NCBI GenBank assembly: GCA_903882745.1
Contig: CAIRYG010000011.1
Span: 248,001 to 312,000, forward strand
Reading direction: 5' to 3'
DNA length: 64,000 bases
DNA from: an uncultured Gemmatimonadota bacterium
GTDB taxonomy: Bacteria; Gemmatimonadota; Gemmatimonadetes; Gemmatimonadales; Gemmatimonadaceae
Shown here: piece after piece, positions 5,704 through 39,446 of the stretch
Layout: the number at the start of each line of letters is the position of its first letter
How positions within the stretch are numbered: position 1 is the first letter of the stretch
Translations under genes and position numbers: made by a program
Notes under the pieces: generated by a model
The model's input: only the letters and a program-made list of their open reading frames with translations
Told to the model about the DNA's origin: nothing
The model's database searches: none

Positions 5704-8250
5704 ATGACCCGCCGCGGATCAACCGCCAGCACCAACACCACCAGCACCACCACCAGCACCGCCACCGCCCTCCTGGCCGGCGGCCTGCTGCTCGGACTCC
5801 TCTGGGTAGGCGCGCGCACCACCGGACCGCTTCCCCCGCTCGGACGGCTGCTCGACCCGGTCCACGGCGCCTGGGCGCTAGCGGCGCGCGCCAATCTGCC
5901 GGCCACCGAATCGCACACGATCGCAGGCCTGAGCGCGGCGGTCGACGTGCGCTTCGACGACCGCAGCGTCCCGCACATCTTTGCCCCCACCGTTGCCGAC
6001 GCCTACCGCGCCCTGGGCTGGGTGCACGCGCGCGACCGACTCTTTCAGATGGAACTCCAAGCGCGCGCGGTGGCGGGAACACTCGCCGAGCTCGCGGGCC
6101 CACGCACCAAGGAGCTGGACCGTGAAGCTCGCGCCATAGGGCTTGCATGGGGCGCGGAAAAAACGTTTGCCGCTCTTGATCCGCAGTCGCCGGCCGCGCG
6201 CGCCATCAACGCCTACGCCGACGGCGTGAACGCCTACATCGCGCAGATGTCCCCCGGTGACCTGCCACTCGAATACCGCCTCCTCGGCGCCACTCCGCAG
6301 CCCTGGAAGCCGGTGTACACCGCCTATCTGCAGGCGCGCATGGGGTTGACCCTCGCCTACAGCGACGGCGAACTGCGCCGCGAACAAGTACAGGCGCTCA
6401 TTGGCAAGGCCGCGACCGCCGCGCTCTTTCCGGTTGATGCCCCGCTGCAGGAGCCGATTCAGCCCAACGGACAGCATACGACGCGCGCCGACTGGCAGCG
6501 CATCCCCGCCCCGCAGCCCGCAAGCGCCGAGAAGTTAGCGCAGGCGCTCGAACTCGACGGCGCCATCGCCAAGTTCGCCAGCCTGCCGCGCGACGCCGGT
6601 GAAATCGCCGTCGGAAGCAACAACTGGGCCGTGTCTCCCGCGCGCACCGCCGCAGGACACGCGCTGCTCTCGGGTGATCCCCACCTCGCGCTCTCACTGC
6701 CCTCGATCTGGTACGAAGCACACCTCGTCGTCCCCGACACACTCGACAGCTACGGGGTGACGCTTCTGGGATCCCCGCTCGTCCCAATCGGCTTCAACAG
6801 AAACGTGGCGTGGACAGCCACCAACACCGGCGCGGATGTGGCCGACTACTACGTCGAGACGGTCGACAACGCCACGCACCCCACCACCTACAAACTCGAC
6901 GGCGCGTGGAAGCCACTGCTCGTGCGCATCGAGACGGTCCGCGGCCCGCACGGTGAGCCGCTCGCGACCGACACGATCTATCACACGCATCGCGGGCCCA
7001 TGGTGCACTCCGGCGCCCGATGGATCTCGCGTCGCTGGACCATTCTCGACGCATCGGTGGTCACTGCGCTCAGCGCCTTCGGCCAAGCCAATCAAGCCGC
7101 GAGCGTGTCCGACCTCATGCGCGGCATCGCGACCTACGAAGGCCCCGCGCAAAACTTTCTCGCCGCAGATCGCGGCGGGCACATTGGCATTCGCTCCACC
7201 GCCAAGTATCCGATTCGCCCCGCCAGCGCCGCTCGCGGTGACGAAATCGCCGACGGCGCCAGCAGCGCCAACGATTGGCAAGGCTGGTGGCCGGTCAGCG
7301 ACTTTCCGCAATCGTTCGATCCCGCGCAGGGCTACATCGCGAGCGCGAATCAACAGCCGAAAGATCCCAAGGTCGACGGCCGCTACTTCGGATGGGATTG
7401 GCCCGCCCCCTGGCGCGCCATGCGCATCAATGCCCTGCTCCGCGCCGATTCGGTAGTCACTCCGGACGCGATGCGCCGCTACCAAACGGACCCGCGCAGC
7501 GCAGAGACCGACATTTTCGTTGACGCCTTCCTCGCCTCAGCCGCCGGATCCCCCGCCAACCCAAGCTTCGAGCAAGGGATCCGCCACCTGCGGAAATGGG
7601 ACCGCACGTTCACCAAGGAAAACGAGCAGGCCGTACTCTTTGAGACGGCGCTCGACGAACTCACGCGCCGCACCTGGGACGAACTCTCGGTCACCGGCGC
7701 GCCCAGTGAGGACCGTCCGCGTCGCGTCGCGACACCGAACTCGATGATCCTCGCCGAACTGTTGCAGGATCCCAAGAATCCCTGGTGGGACGATCGCTCC
7801 ACGCCGAGTGTCGTCGAGGACCGCGACATGATCCTGCGCGCCGCACTCGCCGCCGCCTACGACCGCACCGTGAAAACCCTCGGCAACCCGGGCCCCGCCT
7901 GGCGCTGGGACCGCAACCGCTTTGCGAACATCTATCATCTGCTGCGCCTCCCCGCACTCTCGCGCCTCCGCATCCCAATGCAGGGAGGCCCTGGCACGCT
8001 GAGTCCCTCGGCGGGCGACGGCACACACGGCGCCAGCTGGCGGATGGTGGTTGAGCTTGGCCCTGAGGTGCGCGCGTGGGGCACCTATCCAGGCGGCCAG
8101 AGTGGTAACCCAATGAGCGCACGCTACGCCGATCGACTTCCGCAGTGGGCAAGCGGCACACTCGACACCCTCCGCTTTCCACACACAGCCGCTGAGCTTC
8201 GAGGCGCCACGCTGAGCTCGGTCCTGACCTTCACGCCGGGAGGACGCTAA
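5704..8250 (+). CDS. Penicillin acylase-family Ntn hydrolase
   Basis: These enzymes are made as a precursor, cleave themselves before a serine, and hydrolyse amide bonds of acylated compounds (beta-lactam side chains, acyl-homoserine lactones, acyl amino acids). The 848-residue protein has a Ser/Thr-rich start and an N-terminal hydrophobic segment (residues ~20-36), so it is exported or anchored. The A-chain motif GWVHARDRLFQMELQARAVA lies at 105-124. The self-cleavage site is GSNNW, with the nucleophile at S305, and SGDPHL follows. The late region contains the GGPGTLSPSAGDGTHGASWR segment typical of the family. The downstream small membrane gene overlaps its stop by one base (TAATG). Substrate preference cannot be read from sequence. 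Confidence 0.92.
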   Translation: MTRRGSTASTNTTSTTTSTATALLAGGLLLGLLWVGARTTGPLPPLGRLLDPVHGAWALAARANLPATESHTIAGLSAAVDVRFDDRSVPHIFAPTVADAYRALGWVHARDRLFQMELQARAVAGTLAELAGPRTKELDREARAIGLAWGAEKTFAALDPQSPAARAINAYADGVNAYIAQMSPGDLPLEYRLLGATPQPWKPVYTAYLQARMGLTLAYSDGELRREQVQALIGKAATAALFPVDAPLQEPIQPNGQHTTRADWQRIPAPQPASAEKLAQALELDGAIAKFASLPRDAGEIAVGSNNWAVSPARTAAGHALLSGDPHLALSLPSIWYEAHLVVPDTLDSYGVTLLGSPLVPIGFNRNVAWTATNTGADVADYYVETVDNATHPTTYKLDGAWKPLLVRIETVRGPHGEPLATDTIYHTHRGPMVHSGARWISRRWTILDASVVTALSAFGQANQAASVSDLMRGIATYEGPAQNFLAADRGGHIGIRSTAKYPIRPASAARGDEIADGASSANDWQGWWPVSDFPQSFDPAQGYIASANQQPKDPKVDGRYFGWDWPAPWRAMRINALLRADSVVTPDAMRRYQTDPRSAETDIFVDAFLASAAGSPANPSFEQGIRHLRKWDRTFTKENEQAVLFETALDELTRRTWDELSVTGAPSEDRPRRVATPNSMILAELLQDPKNPWWDDRSTPSVVEDRDMILRAALAAAYDRTVKTLGNPGPAWRWDRNRFANIYHLLRLPALSRLRIPMQGGPGTLSPSAGDGTHGASWRMVVELGPEVRAWGTYPGGQSGNPMSARYADRLPQWASGTLDTLRFPHTAAELRGATLSSVLTFTPGGR

Positions 8251-9989: not shown

Positions 9990-12140
9990 TTAGAAGGCGA
10001 TTCGCGCGGTCAGCAATAAGCTACGTCCCGCGATCGGAAAGAACGAGCGTCCGCCATTTTCCTCGTACCCACTGCTGTAGGCGCGAATGTCGCCAAGGTT
10101 CTGAATCTCACCGCGCCAGTCGATCCCCGCCACGTGCCAGCTGAGGCCGGTGTCGAACATCCAGAACGCGGGGGTGACCATGGCGGCGTTGCCGTCGTTG
10201 GCCAGGCGCCCGCGATCCTGATAGCGGGTGCCGAACTCCCACGAGAGGGTGCTCGACGCGCGATAGACAAGACGGTCGTTGAAGGTCACGGGCGGCGTCG
10301 CGACCGGCTCCACGTCGAGATAGGTCTTGGCGGCTGCGTCGTCGCGATAGCTCGCAATGCGCGCTGTCATGACAGTCAGGTTCGCCGTGGTGGACCACTG
10401 GTCGGCGAGGCGCCATTCGCCGTCGAGCTCAATACCGCGGCGCGCGCTCCGATCGACATTCTTCCGCAGCGGATTCCCCGTGAGGCTGATTGTGCCGATC
10501 GCGAGCACTTCGTTATGGAACTCCATATCGAAGAGGTTCACCGTGAGCGACGACGTCGCCGTCCGCCAGCGGACGCCCGCTTCGAAGTCATCGAGTTGCT
10601 CGGGGTGCACGCGTGTCAGCGGCAGCACCGAGCCGGCGGTGGTGGCGTCGATGTCGTCGGCGCCGGCAAAGAGATCGGCACGTGCTGGCTCGCGGCCGGT
10701 GCGTCCCCAGCTGCCGAACAGCTCAACACCCGGCTGGAGTGTGTAGGCCAGCGAGAGCTTGGGATTGAGGAAGGTCCAGTCGGTGCCGAACGGAGCAATG
10801 CCTGCCGCCACCGAGGGATGGTACTGAAAGGCCGCGCGCCGGAGCTGCAGGTCCGCCGCAAAGCGCCAGTCGCCGACGGTGTAGCCAAGCTTCGTGAAGG
10901 CGCTCTGCTCCTGCTTGTAGCCGACGTTGTCGTACAGGCGCGCGCTGAGCGTGGGGCGCATCGCGAGCGCGTGCTCGCGATGGTAATCGCTGGCGTGGAA
11001 TCCGGCGTCGAGTGACCAGGCGCCGCGCGACACTTGCAGGGTGCCGATCGCGCCGAGCCAGACGTGCGCGAGTGCGTAGTTGGCGTAGGGGCCGGAGCCG
11101 AAGTTTACGTCGTAGCCACCCGCCGCCGAGTTGCGATAGGTGGTGAGGGTTGTGCGGATACCGTCGGTGAAGGCGTGCGTCCATTGGAGGCTCGCCATCT
11201 CCTGATGAAAGAGATCGCCGTCGGCGGTGCTCAGTGGATTGTCCTGCGGGTCGGTGCGCACCACCGATTCGGAGGAGGCGTAGTAGGCCATGTGCGTGCC
11301 CGAGAGCCCGGCGAAGCCCGAGAACTTGAGGGCGTCGCGATCGCCGAACCATCCTGCGCTCAGGTAGGTGGACTTAGCTTCGTTGCCGGAGTGGTGGCGG
11401 TAACCGTCGGTCCGCTGCGCGGTGACGCGGCCATAGGCGGCGAACCCGCTCGGCGTGATCCCGGTGGCGTACTGTGCGGTGATCCCTTGGGTATTGAACG
11501 AACCGCCGACGAACTGCACATCCCCGCCCTGCGGCGTGGTGGCGAGCGAGAGCGACTGGAAGTTCAGCGCCCCTGCGTACGACGCCGTGCCAAAGCTACT
11601 GGCGCCAACACCGCGCGAGATTTGCACCGACTGCACGCTCTGCATGAAACCGGCGACGTTGGAGAAGTAGAGGACTTGGTCTTCGGGATCGTTCAGTGGA
11701 ACGCCGTCGAACGTGATATTGAGGCGCGTTTGATCGATGCCACGGAGTCGGATGTAGCTATAGCCCGAGAAGCTTCCCGATTCCGAATACGAGGTGACGC
11801 TCGGCGCGCTGGTGAGAAAGAGTGGCGCGTCCTGCCCTGCGTATCGGAGTCGGATCTCCTCCCGTTGCATGGTGTGCTGCGCGCCCGGCGCGGGCGTCGC
11901 GGCGCGCACGGCACGGATGGCCACGGCCTCAAGGGTGTCGCGGCGCGCGGCGCTGGAGTCGGCTGCTGTTTGGGCCTTGGGTGTCGCCTGCTGCGCGGCC
12001 TGCTGCGCGGCCTGCTGCGCACCGAGTGCCGAACCGAATGCCGAACCGAATGCCGAACCAAAAACCGAACTCCCTCCTGGCGCCGCCACGAGGGTACATA
12101 CTGCGAGCGCAAAATTGCGCATGTGCTGAACACTGGGCAT
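9990..12140 (-). CDS. TonB-dependent receptor, probably for thiamine compounds
   Basis: A ~716-residue outer-membrane TonB-dependent transporter. The plug domain contains YIRLRGIDQTRLNITFDGVP and the barrel ends with the aromatic LLLTARIAF. Start 12140 was chosen because GGAG lies 10 bases upstream; ATG at 12122 is the alternative and fits a signal peptide equally well. Between signal peptide and plug there is a low-complexity stretch of FGSA and QQAA repeats. The strongest functional clue is the TPP riboswitch and terminator in its leader: such receptors in thiamine regulons were described in Bacteroidetes as candidate thiamine-compound transporters. The barrel alone would not reveal the substrate, so that assignment rests on the regulatory element. 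Confidence 0.88.
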   Translation of the reverse strand: MPSVQHMRNFALAVCTLVAAPGGSSVFGSAFGSAFGSALGAQQAAQQAAQQATPKAQTAADSSAARRDTLEAVAIRAVRAATPAPGAQHTMQREEIRLRYAGQDAPLFLTSAPSVTSYSESGSFSGYSYIRLRGIDQTRLNITFDGVPLNDPEDQVLYFSNVAGFMQSVQSVQISRGVGASSFGTASYAGALNFQSLSLATTPQGGDVQFVGGSFNTQGITAQYATGITPSGFAAYGRVTAQRTDGYRHHSGNEAKSTYLSAGWFGDRDALKFSGFAGLSGTHMAYYASSESVVRTDPQDNPLSTADGDLFHQEMASLQWTHAFTDGIRTTLTTYRNSAAGGYDVNFGSGPYANYALAHVWLGAIGTLQVSRGAWSLDAGFHASDYHREHALAMRPTLSARLYDNVGYKQEQSAFTKLGYTVGDWRFAADLQLRRAAFQYHPSVAAGIAPFGTDWTFLNPKLSLAYTLQPGVELFGSWGRTGREPARADLFAGADDIDATTAGSVLPLTRVHPEQLDDFEAGVRWRTATSSLTVNLFDMEFHNEVLAIGTISLTGNPLRKNVDRSARRGIELDGEWRLADQWSTTANLTVMTARIASYRDDAAAKTYLDVEPVATPPVTFNDRLVYRASSTLSWEFGTRYQDRGRLANDGNAAMVTPAFWMFDTGLSWHVAGIDWRGEIQNLGDIRAYSSGYEENGGRSFFPIAGRSLLLTARIAF

Positions 12141-12205
12141 TGCCGGGTCGCTCCAAAAAAGGAATTGACGATCCGGAGTGCGCTCGCCTGAGTGGTGCGG
12201 TTCCT

Positions 12206-12245
12206 GAAATAGGAAACGCGCCACCCAGACGAGCGGGTGGCGCGT
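12206..12245 (-). terminator. Leader terminator of the TPP riboswitch
   Basis: ACGCGCCACCC (12216-12226) and GGGTGGCGCGT (12235-12245) form a perfect 11 bp stem with an 8-base loop, followed on the minus strand by TTTCCTATTT. It lies between the aptamer and the receptor start codon and is therefore the likely expression platform: TPP binding would favour termination. Confidence 0.8.
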
Positions 12246-12266
12246 GACGAGAACGGCACGCGACAC

Positions 12267-12360
12267 GCCGCACTCCCTACGCCGGTATAAACCGGGTCAG
12301 GTTCCAAGAGATTCTCTCAACCCCGCATACGCATGGCGTGCGCGGAGTACCCCTGGCGGC
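12267..12360 (-). ncRNA. TPP riboswitch (THI element)
   Basis: The minus strand carries the THI-box core: GGGGU, a P3 stem, UUGAGA (canonical CUGAGA), then GAACCUGACCCGG, UAUACCGGCGUAGGGA. The outer P1 helix is formed by GCCGC (12356-12360) and GCGGC (12267-12271). It lies in the leader of the TonB-dependent receptor, with a terminator between the two. The one departure from consensus is U for C in the UUGAGA box. The divergent MFS gene is on the other strand and is not controlled by it. Confidence 0.93.
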
Positions 12361-12436
12361 TGTCCCCGAATAGTTATGCCGCGCGCACACCTCGCGCCAG
12401 TGGACGACCATCACGCGACACGCACATATTCCTGCT

Positions 12437-13801
12437 ATGGCCTTTGACTTCCTCGACCGCTCGCGCTCCATTGCGCCCGCCAACTACGACCGCTGGCGCG
12501 TGCCGCCCGCCGCACTCGCGATTCACCTCGCGATTGGGCAGGCCTACGCCTTCAGTGTGTTCAACCTTCCGCTCTCCACCCTGCGCGGCATTACCGCCAG
12601 CGCGCCGGACGACTGGAAGCTCTCGACAATCGGCTGGATCTTCTCCGTCGCGATCGCCTTTCTGGGGATCTCCGCCTTTACCTTCGGCCGCTGGCTCGAA
12701 GCCGCAGGGCCGCGCAAAGCAATGTTCGCCTCGGCCTGTTGCTTTGCCGGCGGATTCTTTGTCGCCGCGCTCGGCGTGCAGACACACGCCTTCTGGCTCG
12801 TGATTCTTGGCTACGGTGTGATTGGTGGGATTGGCCTCGGGCTCGGCTACATCTCGCCGGTGAGCACGCTGATCAAGTGGTTCCCCGATCATCCGGGCAT
12901 GGCCACCGGACTCGCCATTATGGGGTTCGGTGGTGGCGCCATGATCGGCTCGCCGCTCGCCGTCGCGCTGATGGAGCACTTCAAGAGTGCCACCGATGTT
13001 GGCGTCGCGCCGGCTTTTATGGCCATGGGCGCGCTCTACTTCGTGTTCATGATGTTCGGCGTGTTCACCGTGCGCCTTCCAGCGCCGGGGTGGACGCCGG
13101 CGCAGCCGCGTGATGCGTCGGGCACTCGCCGCACCGTGCTCGCGCCTGCTCCCGACGTACATGTGAACAGCGCCATCCGGACGCGCCCCTTCTGGTTGCT
13201 GTGGGTGGTGCTCTGCCTGAATGTCACTGCGGGGATCGGTGTGCTCGGGCAGGCCTCGCCGATGATTCAGGAGATGTTCCCTGGGGTGATTGGCCCGGCA
13301 GCGGCGGCAGGCTTTGTGGGCTTGCTCAGCCTCGCGAACATGACAGGACGCTTTTTCTGGTCGTCGCTGAGCGATGTGATCGGGCGCCAGCGCACCTACA
13401 TGATTTTCTTCGCTGCAGGAGCCGCGCTGTACGCCGGCGTTCCCTTCACGGGGCGCGCGGGGAATGTAGTGCTCTTTGTGGCCTTCTATGTGCTCATTAT
13501 GACGATGTACGGCGGTGGATTTGCGACCATTCCCGCCTACCTGCGTGATCTCTTCGGCACCATGCACGTGGGGGCGATCCATGGTCGACTGCTCACCGCC
13601 TGGAGTGTGGCCGGCGTCGCGGGGCCTGTGCTGGTGAACTACATCCGCGAATATCAGCTCGCGCACGGCGTGCCCAAGGCGGAAGCGTATTCGGTCACCA
13701 TGTATCTGATGGCGGGGCTGCTCCTGGTCGGCTTTGCCGCCAACTGGTGGGTGAGCCCCGTGGACCCCAAGTACCGGTTCAAAACTGGAGATACCGTATG
13801 A
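12437..13801 (+). CDS. OFA-family MFS transporter
   Basis: A 454-residue major facilitator of the oxalate/formate antiporter type with about 12 membrane segments. Recognisable pieces are the N-terminal AIHLAIGQAYAFSVFNLPL, the GLGLGYISPVSTLIKWFPD loop after helix 4, and NMTGRFFWSSLSDVIGRQR between helices 8 and 9. These proteins exchange or take up small carboxylates; the actual substrate here is unknown. The stop codon overlaps the next start by ATGA, pairing it with a 41-residue membrane protein known to accompany this family. It is divergent from the thiamine-type receptor, about 75 bp from the riboswitch. Confidence 0.9.
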   Translation: MAFDFLDRSRSIAPANYDRWRVPPAALAIHLAIGQAYAFSVFNLPLSTLRGITASAPDDWKLSTIGWIFSVAIAFLGISAFTFGRWLEAAGPRKAMFASACCFAGGFFVAALGVQTHAFWLVILGYGVIGGIGLGLGYISPVSTLIKWFPDHPGMATGLAIMGFGGGAMIGSPLAVALMEHFKSATDVGVAPAFMAMGALYFVFMMFGVFTVRLPAPGWTPAQPRDASGTRRTVLAPAPDVHVNSAIRTRPFWLLWVVLCLNVTAGIGVLGQASPMIQEMFPGVIGPAAAAGFVGLLSLANMTGRFFWSSLSDVIGRQRTYMIFFAAGAALYAGVPFTGRAGNVVLFVAFYVLIMTMYGGGFATIPAYLRDLFGTMHVGAIHGRLLTAWSVAGVAGPVLVNYIREYQLAHGVPKAEAYSVTMYLMAGLLLVGFAANWWVSPVDPKYRFKTGDTV

Positions 13802-38499: not shown

Positions 38500-39446
38500 G
38501 TGCGAAAATGATCGTGCCCCGTAGGGGGCGTTATTACGCGACCGTCGTAGAGAACAATCACATCAGGCCCCGTGGCGGGCGCAATCTCTACGCGCCCCAC
38601 CGCCGTGAGCGGCACACCAAACTCGCGCGCAAACCGGTCGGTGTCGAGCGACGCCGGACCGGTGACCACCAACTCATACTCTTCCCCGCTGCTCGCCCCC
38701 TCAACTTCCGTCACACCATCCACGAGCGTGAGTTGATCTAAATCCAGCACGAGTCGTCGATCGCTCGCTGCCGCAAGGTGCGCGGCATCTGCCACGAGGC
38801 CATCCGAGCAATCCACCGCCGCGGTAGCGCCCTCAGCGGCCAGCCATATGGCTTCACGAATCCGCGGGACCGGATGGGCGAATCGCTGGCGATGCTCCGC
38901 GGCCGGCGTTTCGTCACGCGACAGTGCACGCACGGCCGCCCCAGGGCCACCGAATCGCCCCGTGACGAACACCACCTGCCCGGCGACCGCGCCATCGCGC
39001 CTGAGCAGTTGCTCCGAGCGCGCAGCCCCCAGCACCGTAACTGTGATGGTCAACGTGGCGCCGCTCGTGAGATCGCCACCAATGATGCGCATGCCGGTGG
39101 CGCGCGCGAGCTCCGCCATGCCGTCGGCAAGCTCGAGTGCCTGCGGCCGCCAGGCATCGGGGAGCGTCATAGCGACCGTCATACCGAGCGGCGTGGCCCC
39201 CATCGCGGCGAGATCACTCACCGCGGAGGCAGCGGCGCGATACCCAATTTCCTGCGCGGTCAGCCACTCGCGCTTGAAGTGCACGAACTCCACCGAGCTA
39301 TCGGTGCTCACCACCAACTTCTCGCCGGCGGGCACATCAACAATGGCCGCGTCGTCGCCCGTGCCCTCGGCGAGCGTGCCCCAGCGCGCAAGCAATGCGC
39401 GCACCAAGTCGAACTCAGAGCCGGGGCCCAAGGTGATGTGCGCCAT
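38496..39446 (-). CDS. thiL: Thiamine-monophosphate kinase
   Basis: Phosphorylates thiamine monophosphate to thiamine pyrophosphate, the active cofactor and ligand of the riboswitch at 12.3 kb. The 316-residue protein has the PurM-like fold motifs: GDDAAIVDV near residue 30, STDSSVEFVHF, the SAVSDLAAMGATPLGMTVAM block, IIGGDLTSG, and VDCSDGLVADAAHLA. Its start overlaps the nnr stop by one base, and its stop overlaps plsC by 4 bp. No riboswitch is seen near this gene, so it is probably expressed with the housekeeping operon. Confidence 0.95.

Follow-up and report, generated by a model that had tools for sequence, protein, structure and literature searches.

Among the described systems in which a thiamine pyrophosphate (TPP) riboswitch precedes an outer-membrane receptor gene, those closest to the locus analysed here include that of OMthi (BT2390, also named Omr1) of Bacteroides thetaiotaomicron. 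As far as the accessible parts of the sources go, the combination of receptor, PnuT and TPP riboswitch has already been published for Bacteroidetes (PMC5613172, PMC6977713), and a BT2390-like receptor with an upstream TPP riboswitch has been reported for Caldithrix abyssi (Cabys_3975-3977), a predicted auxotroph outside this group (PMC5317091, accessible part). Here, we describe a related locus of an uncultured Gemmatimonadota bacterium. The window, i.e. the whole stretch of 64,000 nucleotides that was analysed (contig CAIRYG010000011.1, positions 248,001 to 312,000), carries on its minus strand a TPP riboswitch followed by the gene of a TonB-dependent receptor, and our data suggest that this riboswitch very probably represses an outer-membrane receptor for thiamine in a bacterium that is unable to make the vitamin. 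A previous interpretation of this DNA (the sequence-only reading) had named the Bacteroidetes receptors as precedent, which is correct, but in view of C. abyssi the precedent is not limited to them.

The locus resembles the OMthi system of B. thetaiotaomicron with its pnuT-tnr3 genes in that a TPP riboswitch lies before a TonB-dependent receptor and a Pnu-family protein is the inner-membrane partner (PMC5613172, accessible part). However, according to the same part of that source, most gut Bacteroidetes carry the OMthi system in one operon, whereas here the receptor and Pnu loci are separate and the riboswitch precedes the receptor only. Moreover, unlike in the OMthi system, the host has none of the synthesis genes that were searched for, and instead of a TPK partner, which was not found, a NadR-like kinase is encoded beside the Pnu gene. 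Within the Gemmatimonadota, the same aptamer class precedes thiC in 34 of 101 genomes, usually as one copy per genome. There it controls synthesis, whereas the riboswitch of the window precedes a receptor, and both kinds occur together in only 4 of the 101. In the literature searched, which left subscription journals mostly aside, we recognised no description of the riboswitch-receptor arrangement in Gemmatimonadota. Thus, the type of switch is known, but its wide use in this phylum appears not to have been described before.

Results

The aptamer and the receptor gene

The two central features of the locus are:

12256 to 12364, minus strand: TPP riboswitch aptamer (RF00059), with the P1 5' strand at 12364-12356 and the P1 3' strand at 12271-12262; P3a is absent
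9990 to 12140, minus strand: TonB-dependent receptor, predicted outer-membrane thiamine receptor (Pfam Plug and TonB_dep_Rec_b-barrel; homologues lie behind TPP riboswitches)

The sequence-only reading had proposed an Infernal search with the Rfam TPP model as a check of its riboswitch. This search (cmscan) matched RF00059 on the minus strand at 12364-12256 over the full model (1-105) with 58.6 bits (E 6.4e-9), which is above the gathering score of 54.3 bits. The Rfam alignment contains the conserved core (UGAGA, CUGA, GGCGUAGGGA) and the P1-P5 pairings, and the core and P1 had been read correctly before, although the span then given (12206-12360) fell short of P1 by just 4 nt. In contrast, the UUGAGA sequence, which had been considered a notable core variant, is an ordinary compensated base pair at the foot of P3: among 16 aligned leaders these columns hold A-T in 14 and G-C in 2, so that the pair is preserved in 16/16. 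The alignment concerned (A3) covers two genera and was taken from a larger one of 22 leaders (A2) by leaving out L123 (it contains N) and the five leaders of g2 and g38; identical rows entered the counts once. The aptamer is the single TPP riboswitch of the whole host genome and, judged by its sequence, is predicted to bind TPP.

The receptor gene probably starts at ATG 12140, with GGAG ten bases upstream, and encodes 716 amino acids up to the stop codon at 9992-9990. GTG 12266 was considered as an alternative start and rejected since relatives such as L135 and L083 have a broken reading frame upstream. The receptor family that had been assigned before is borne out by domain matches to Plug (41 bits) and the TonB-receptor barrel (102 bits). 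The nearest named relatives of the protein are encoded in Gemmatimonadetes metagenome-assembled genomes (MAGs), with a Lac Pavin MAG at the top (94% identity), and this supports the Gemmatimonadota origin that had been considered probable for the DNA.

Thiamine pathway genes and distribution of the arrangement

The host genome comprises 3.06 Mb and its completeness is rated 100%. We searched for pathway genes in 27 chosen genomes (8 of the genus, 12 thiC-lacking members of the rest of the family, 4 with both riboswitch targets and 3 with the riboswitch on thiC only). ThiC was not found in the host genome and in seven other sampled genus members, but it is present in 160 of 249 phylum genomes. 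Searches for ThiE gave no matches in the eight genus genomes tested, including that of the host (8/8), and ThiG gave none in the host genome. TPK was absent from the matches in all 27 genomes (0/27), and ThiK did not exceed its cut-off in any of them; a weak ThiK-like match of the host genome scored 37 bits, far below the 299-bit cut-off. ThiL was above its cut-off in 26/27 genomes, including the host, where the gene lies in the window:

38505 to 39416, minus strand: thiL, thiamine-monophosphate kinase (TIGR01379, 235 bits, cut-off 184; AIRS domains), last step of the inferred pathway

This gene is located about 26 kb from the riboswitch-receptor locus and has no riboswitch of its own. The gene content predicts a thiamine auxotroph that would be unable to join the precursors, and the host seems to be a lake or soil bacterium apparently incapable of making vitamin B1. 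In the accessible part of a published comparison, Gemmatimonadales fall far behind Palauibacterales in the prevalence of thiamine synthesis (PMC10469786). The sequence-only reading had predicted uptake of thiamine or a precursor. The absence of synthesis genes and the recurrence of this arrangement in dozens of relatives back uptake, but a precursor is unlikely as cargo, since ThiE, the enzyme that joins the two precursors, gave no match; the expected cargo is thiamine or a thiamine phosphate. In another genome without thiC (G019), a second TPP riboswitch (L063, C1:4358796-4357236) lies upstream of a 645-amino-acid frame with a ThiE domain, and this organism may salvage precursors.

Within the genus, the riboswitch was detected in 16 of 18 genomes (14/14 of those of good quality), and in 16/16 the same receptor is the next gene. 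In the phylum, 201 of 249 sampled genomes had TPP riboswitch matches, and their places were listed for part of them. Downstream genes were assigned in 101 Gemmatimonadota genomes, a non-random set that consists of listed family members, the genus, the 30 best-scoring TPP riboswitch loci and some genomes without a ThiC match. Here, we found the receptor in 67 and thiC in 34, and the ThiC search, which covered 59 of the receptor-riboswitch genomes, gave no match in 55. This distribution shows that in Gemmatimonadota the switch sits on import instead of synthesis where thiC is missing. Among receptor relatives outside the phylum, 17/20 have an upstream TPP riboswitch; these 17 are mostly from Zixibacteria, with one Calditrichota locus (L250) and some unclassified bacteria.

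Helices between aptamer and start codon

The 241-nt leader is more stably folded than its shuffles (z = -5.86). Downstream of the aptamer core, it contains the following elements:

12237 to 12266, minus strand: antiterminator hairpin, GTGTCGCGTG (12266-12257) paired with CACGCGCCAC (12246-12237), overlapping the P1 3' strand and the terminator 5' arm
12216 to 12245, minus strand: intrinsic-terminator-like hairpin of 12 pairs with a loop of 6; 89.6% of cells paired in the alignment of 16 leaders
12206 to 12215, minus strand: imperfect U tract, TTCCTATTTC
12182 to 12234, minus strand: H3 hairpin, terminator loop and 3' arm (12234-12217) paired with a downstream arm (12199-12182), an alternative to the terminator
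12175 to 12276, minus strand: inferred closing helix of the predicted ligand-free fold, aptamer 3' end GGAGTGC (12276-12270) with GCACTCC (12181-12175)
12143 to 12176, minus strand: start-site hairpin, CCGGATCGT (12176-12168) paired with GCGACCCGG (12151-12143), adjoining the start codon

The antiterminator has 97.2% of its cells paired in the 16 leaders, and its covariation was 0.317, compared with 0.115 after shuffling (0/500 shuffles as high). H3 was revealed by a scripted hairpin search, which chose a longer downstream hairpin in most leaders, and the pair counts were made thereafter. It is paired in 91.2% of the cells, five of its pairs are changed on both sides, and its covariation amounts to 0.235 vs 0.177 (0/500 shuffles). 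Sequences of kin may exceed shuffles even without a structure, and this limits the reading of the covariation values; slid controls gave far lower percentages of paired cells for all four helices. The start-site hairpin is paired in 99.2% of the cells, and since it is nearly invariant it is without covariation support. The closing helix occurs in the predicted minimum-energy fold of 13/16 leaders.

Taken together, the 16 related leaders support P1, antiterminator and terminator as mutually exclusive structures. Before the 3' arm of the terminator is made, the antiterminator is more stable than P1 by 2.1-9.9 kcal/mol in 16/16 leaders. When the terminator has been transcribed to its end, the two states differ by about 7 kcal/mol at most, and therefore the ligand could decide between them. 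As for the direction of control, we infer the following sequence of events. In the absence of TPP, the P1 3' strand would pair with the terminator 5' arm to form the antiterminator, so that transcription would continue and the receptor would be made. TPP would lock P1 and free the terminator arm, and the terminator would then form, leaving less full-length mRNA. In transcripts that escape, the start-site hairpin may block translation as a second layer.

A different layout was observed in many relatives. In 24 of 67 receptor loci, the ATG follows 5-9 nt after the GGGAG of the aptamer. This compact layout leaves no room for a terminator and thus implies direct translational control. The automatic start-codon rule had assigned 39/67 loci to this layout, but 15 of them, including the window, rest on GTG or a wider spacing and were not counted; L025, a duplicate of L123, was omitted from the leader counts. 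Both layouts occur among the genus members (compact 5/16, terminator kind 11/16), and these leaders offer a natural comparison of the two in front of the same gene within one genus. The sequence-only reading had proposed that TPP shuts off the receptor, with a terminator behind the aptamer. The mutually exclusive terminator and antiterminator are in line with this, but termination is probably one of two layers, and many relatives have the compact translational form.

The inner-membrane transporter and a candidate kinase

A PnuC-family protein was found in 24/24 receptor-riboswitch genomes tested, as compared with 0/3 genomes that carry the riboswitch on thiC only. The host genome encodes a single such protein; its gene is located on another contig than the receptor and is without a TPP riboswitch. 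In 23 of the 24 genomes, a NadR-like kinase gene (AAA_28) adjoins the PnuC-family gene, and in the host there is an overlap of a few bases between the two; in G079, a strong kinase match lies away from pnuC. The pair adjoins the TPP-controlled receptor in 7/24 genomes, where it is arranged divergently (G019, G039, G073), in tandem (G016, G112) or convergently (G025, G195).

We propose the sole PnuC/PnuT-family protein of the host as the inner-membrane route of imported thiamine (or a thiamine phosphate), which would end as TPP via ThiL. A thiamine kinase is wanted in this route because ThiL needs thiamine monophosphate (TMP), and ThiE, TPK and ThiK were not detected in the genomes searched for each. 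The NadR-like kinase is the best candidate for the step from thiamine to TMP. A tree of 25 PnuC fragments, for which no branch support was reported, does not place the receptor-linked copies in one exclusive group, and therefore it backs a common function weakly.

On the minus strand of L168 in the host genome (7759-9704), the pnuT-like gene is preceded, with a 4-nt overlap, by the gene of a secreted-looking M20 amidohydrolase, and several relatives have homologues of the latter ahead of their Pnu gene.

Neighbouring genes

The intergenic region of the riboswitch is shared with a divergent gene of the major facilitator superfamily (12437-13801, plus strand), which scored 304 bits with an L-lactate transporter model (cut-off 320). 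With a lactate transporter as best NCBIfam model, just below the cut-off, this gene was rejected as part of the system. A large hydrolase gene (5704-8250, plus strand) is weakly similar to PvdQ acylase (77 bits, cut-off 950).

Discussion

Our data argue for a TPP-controlled thiamine receptor, but several observations weigh against parts of this interpretation. The terminator scan returned one site (minus strand, 12245-12216, 12-pair stem with 9 G-C), which is not significant alone because shuffles average 0.6 sites. The helix is conserved in the leaders but without covariation above that of shuffles, and its tail, TTCCTATTTC, is an imperfect U tract; the hairpin itself had been read previously as a perfect terminator stem. 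The full-length ligand-free fold lies 8-21 kcal/mol below the OFF fold, and consequently the choice must fall during transcription, i.e. kinetically, if TPP acts. A scan against the sigma-70 consensus, the only one used, recognised no promoter upstream of the leader. The receptor did not match any solved structure. The Niastella receptors with the longest matches (L244, L245) and that of a deltaproteobacterium (L246) lack a TPP riboswitch in the available DNA. The two Niastella receptors match that of the window over their full length (32-33% identity, about 660 amino acids), whereas a TPP riboswitch of these Niastella genomes precedes a different receptor (31-32% identity to that of the window over 254 amino acids); orthology with OMthi, judged by these comparisons, is putative. 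Finally, the specificity of PnuC vs PnuT is not readable from sequence here.

It is rather unlikely, in our view, that the riboswitch acts mainly on translation, with the terminator-like hairpin as a folding intermediate and TPP allowing the CACTCCGGATCG element to close over the start site. The compact loci, which include five of the 16 genus members, are consistent with such a mechanism, and so are the covariation of H3, which forms only once the terminator has been passed, and the start-site hairpin, the sequence of which is conserved while the encoded signal peptides differ. Moreover, in the accessible part of PMC5613172, RNA sequencing of B. thetaiotaomicron detected no significant change of the riboswitch-linked receptor and pnuT mRNAs with thiamine, and therefore control may not be termination there. 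However, 11/16 genus members have kept a hairpin with a T-rich tail, the antiterminator competing with the terminator covaries, and the start-site hairpin does not. As for the cargo, import of a precursor (hydroxymethylpyrimidine or thiazole) or of another nutrient, with TPP merely reporting the thiamine status, is very improbable. TonB-dependent receptors vary widely in cargo, and among named NCBIfam models the receptor of the window comes closest to siderophore and heme receptors, with every score far under the cut-off; but with ThiE and ThiG not found in the host genome the precursors could not be joined, and the receptor family trails TPP riboswitches across phyla.

The function of the transporter-kinase pair is more difficult to judge. 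For most Gemmatimonadaceae examined, we tentatively suggest as a possible scheme that thiamine is imported via the TonB-dependent receptor and a PnuT-like permease, and that the NadR-like P-loop kinase (AAA_28), the gene of which overlaps the transporter gene, acts as a thiamine kinase; it would feed ThiL and replace TPK and ThiK as a new, non-orthologous enzyme. In the same scheme, one chain of helices that exclude each other would give the leader of the window lineage two layers of control (termination, then masking of the start site), and sister species within one genus would use the compact translational form. That the PnuC-like protein and the kinase serve salvage of nicotinamide riboside for nicotinamide adenine dinucleotide (NAD), unrelated to the receptor, is a serious possibility, though we doubt it. 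Both proteins score best with NAD-pathway models, the sequence models name the transporter PnuC, clustering of pnuC and nadR for NAD has been published (PMC7221760, accessible part), and the pair of the host lies on another contig, without a TPP riboswitch. On the other hand, the pair adjoins the receptor in 7/24 genomes in three gene orders, a strong kinase match is missing in the three genomes in which the riboswitch serves thiC only, and no TPK or ThiK exceeded the cut-off in the 27 genomes. The accessible part of PMC7749635 indicates that the riboswitch class on the genes of PnuC-like proteins allows a prediction of their specificity; since the Pnu gene of the host has no TPP riboswitch, this argument holds only through the Pnu neighbours in relatives.

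With a thiamine receptor under TPP control as the preferred interpretation, receptor control by TPP riboswitches, known from Bacteroidota and Calditrichota, would also hold for a whole Gemmatimonadota family. For a common and largely uncultured phylum, this would provide an explicit vitamin B1 route, in which import is shut off when there is enough, and the missing step from thiamine to TMP points to a candidate enzyme. The scheme predicts a growth need for nanomolar thiamine, which would matter for isolation media, and it marks a receptor that may be followed in lakes and soils.
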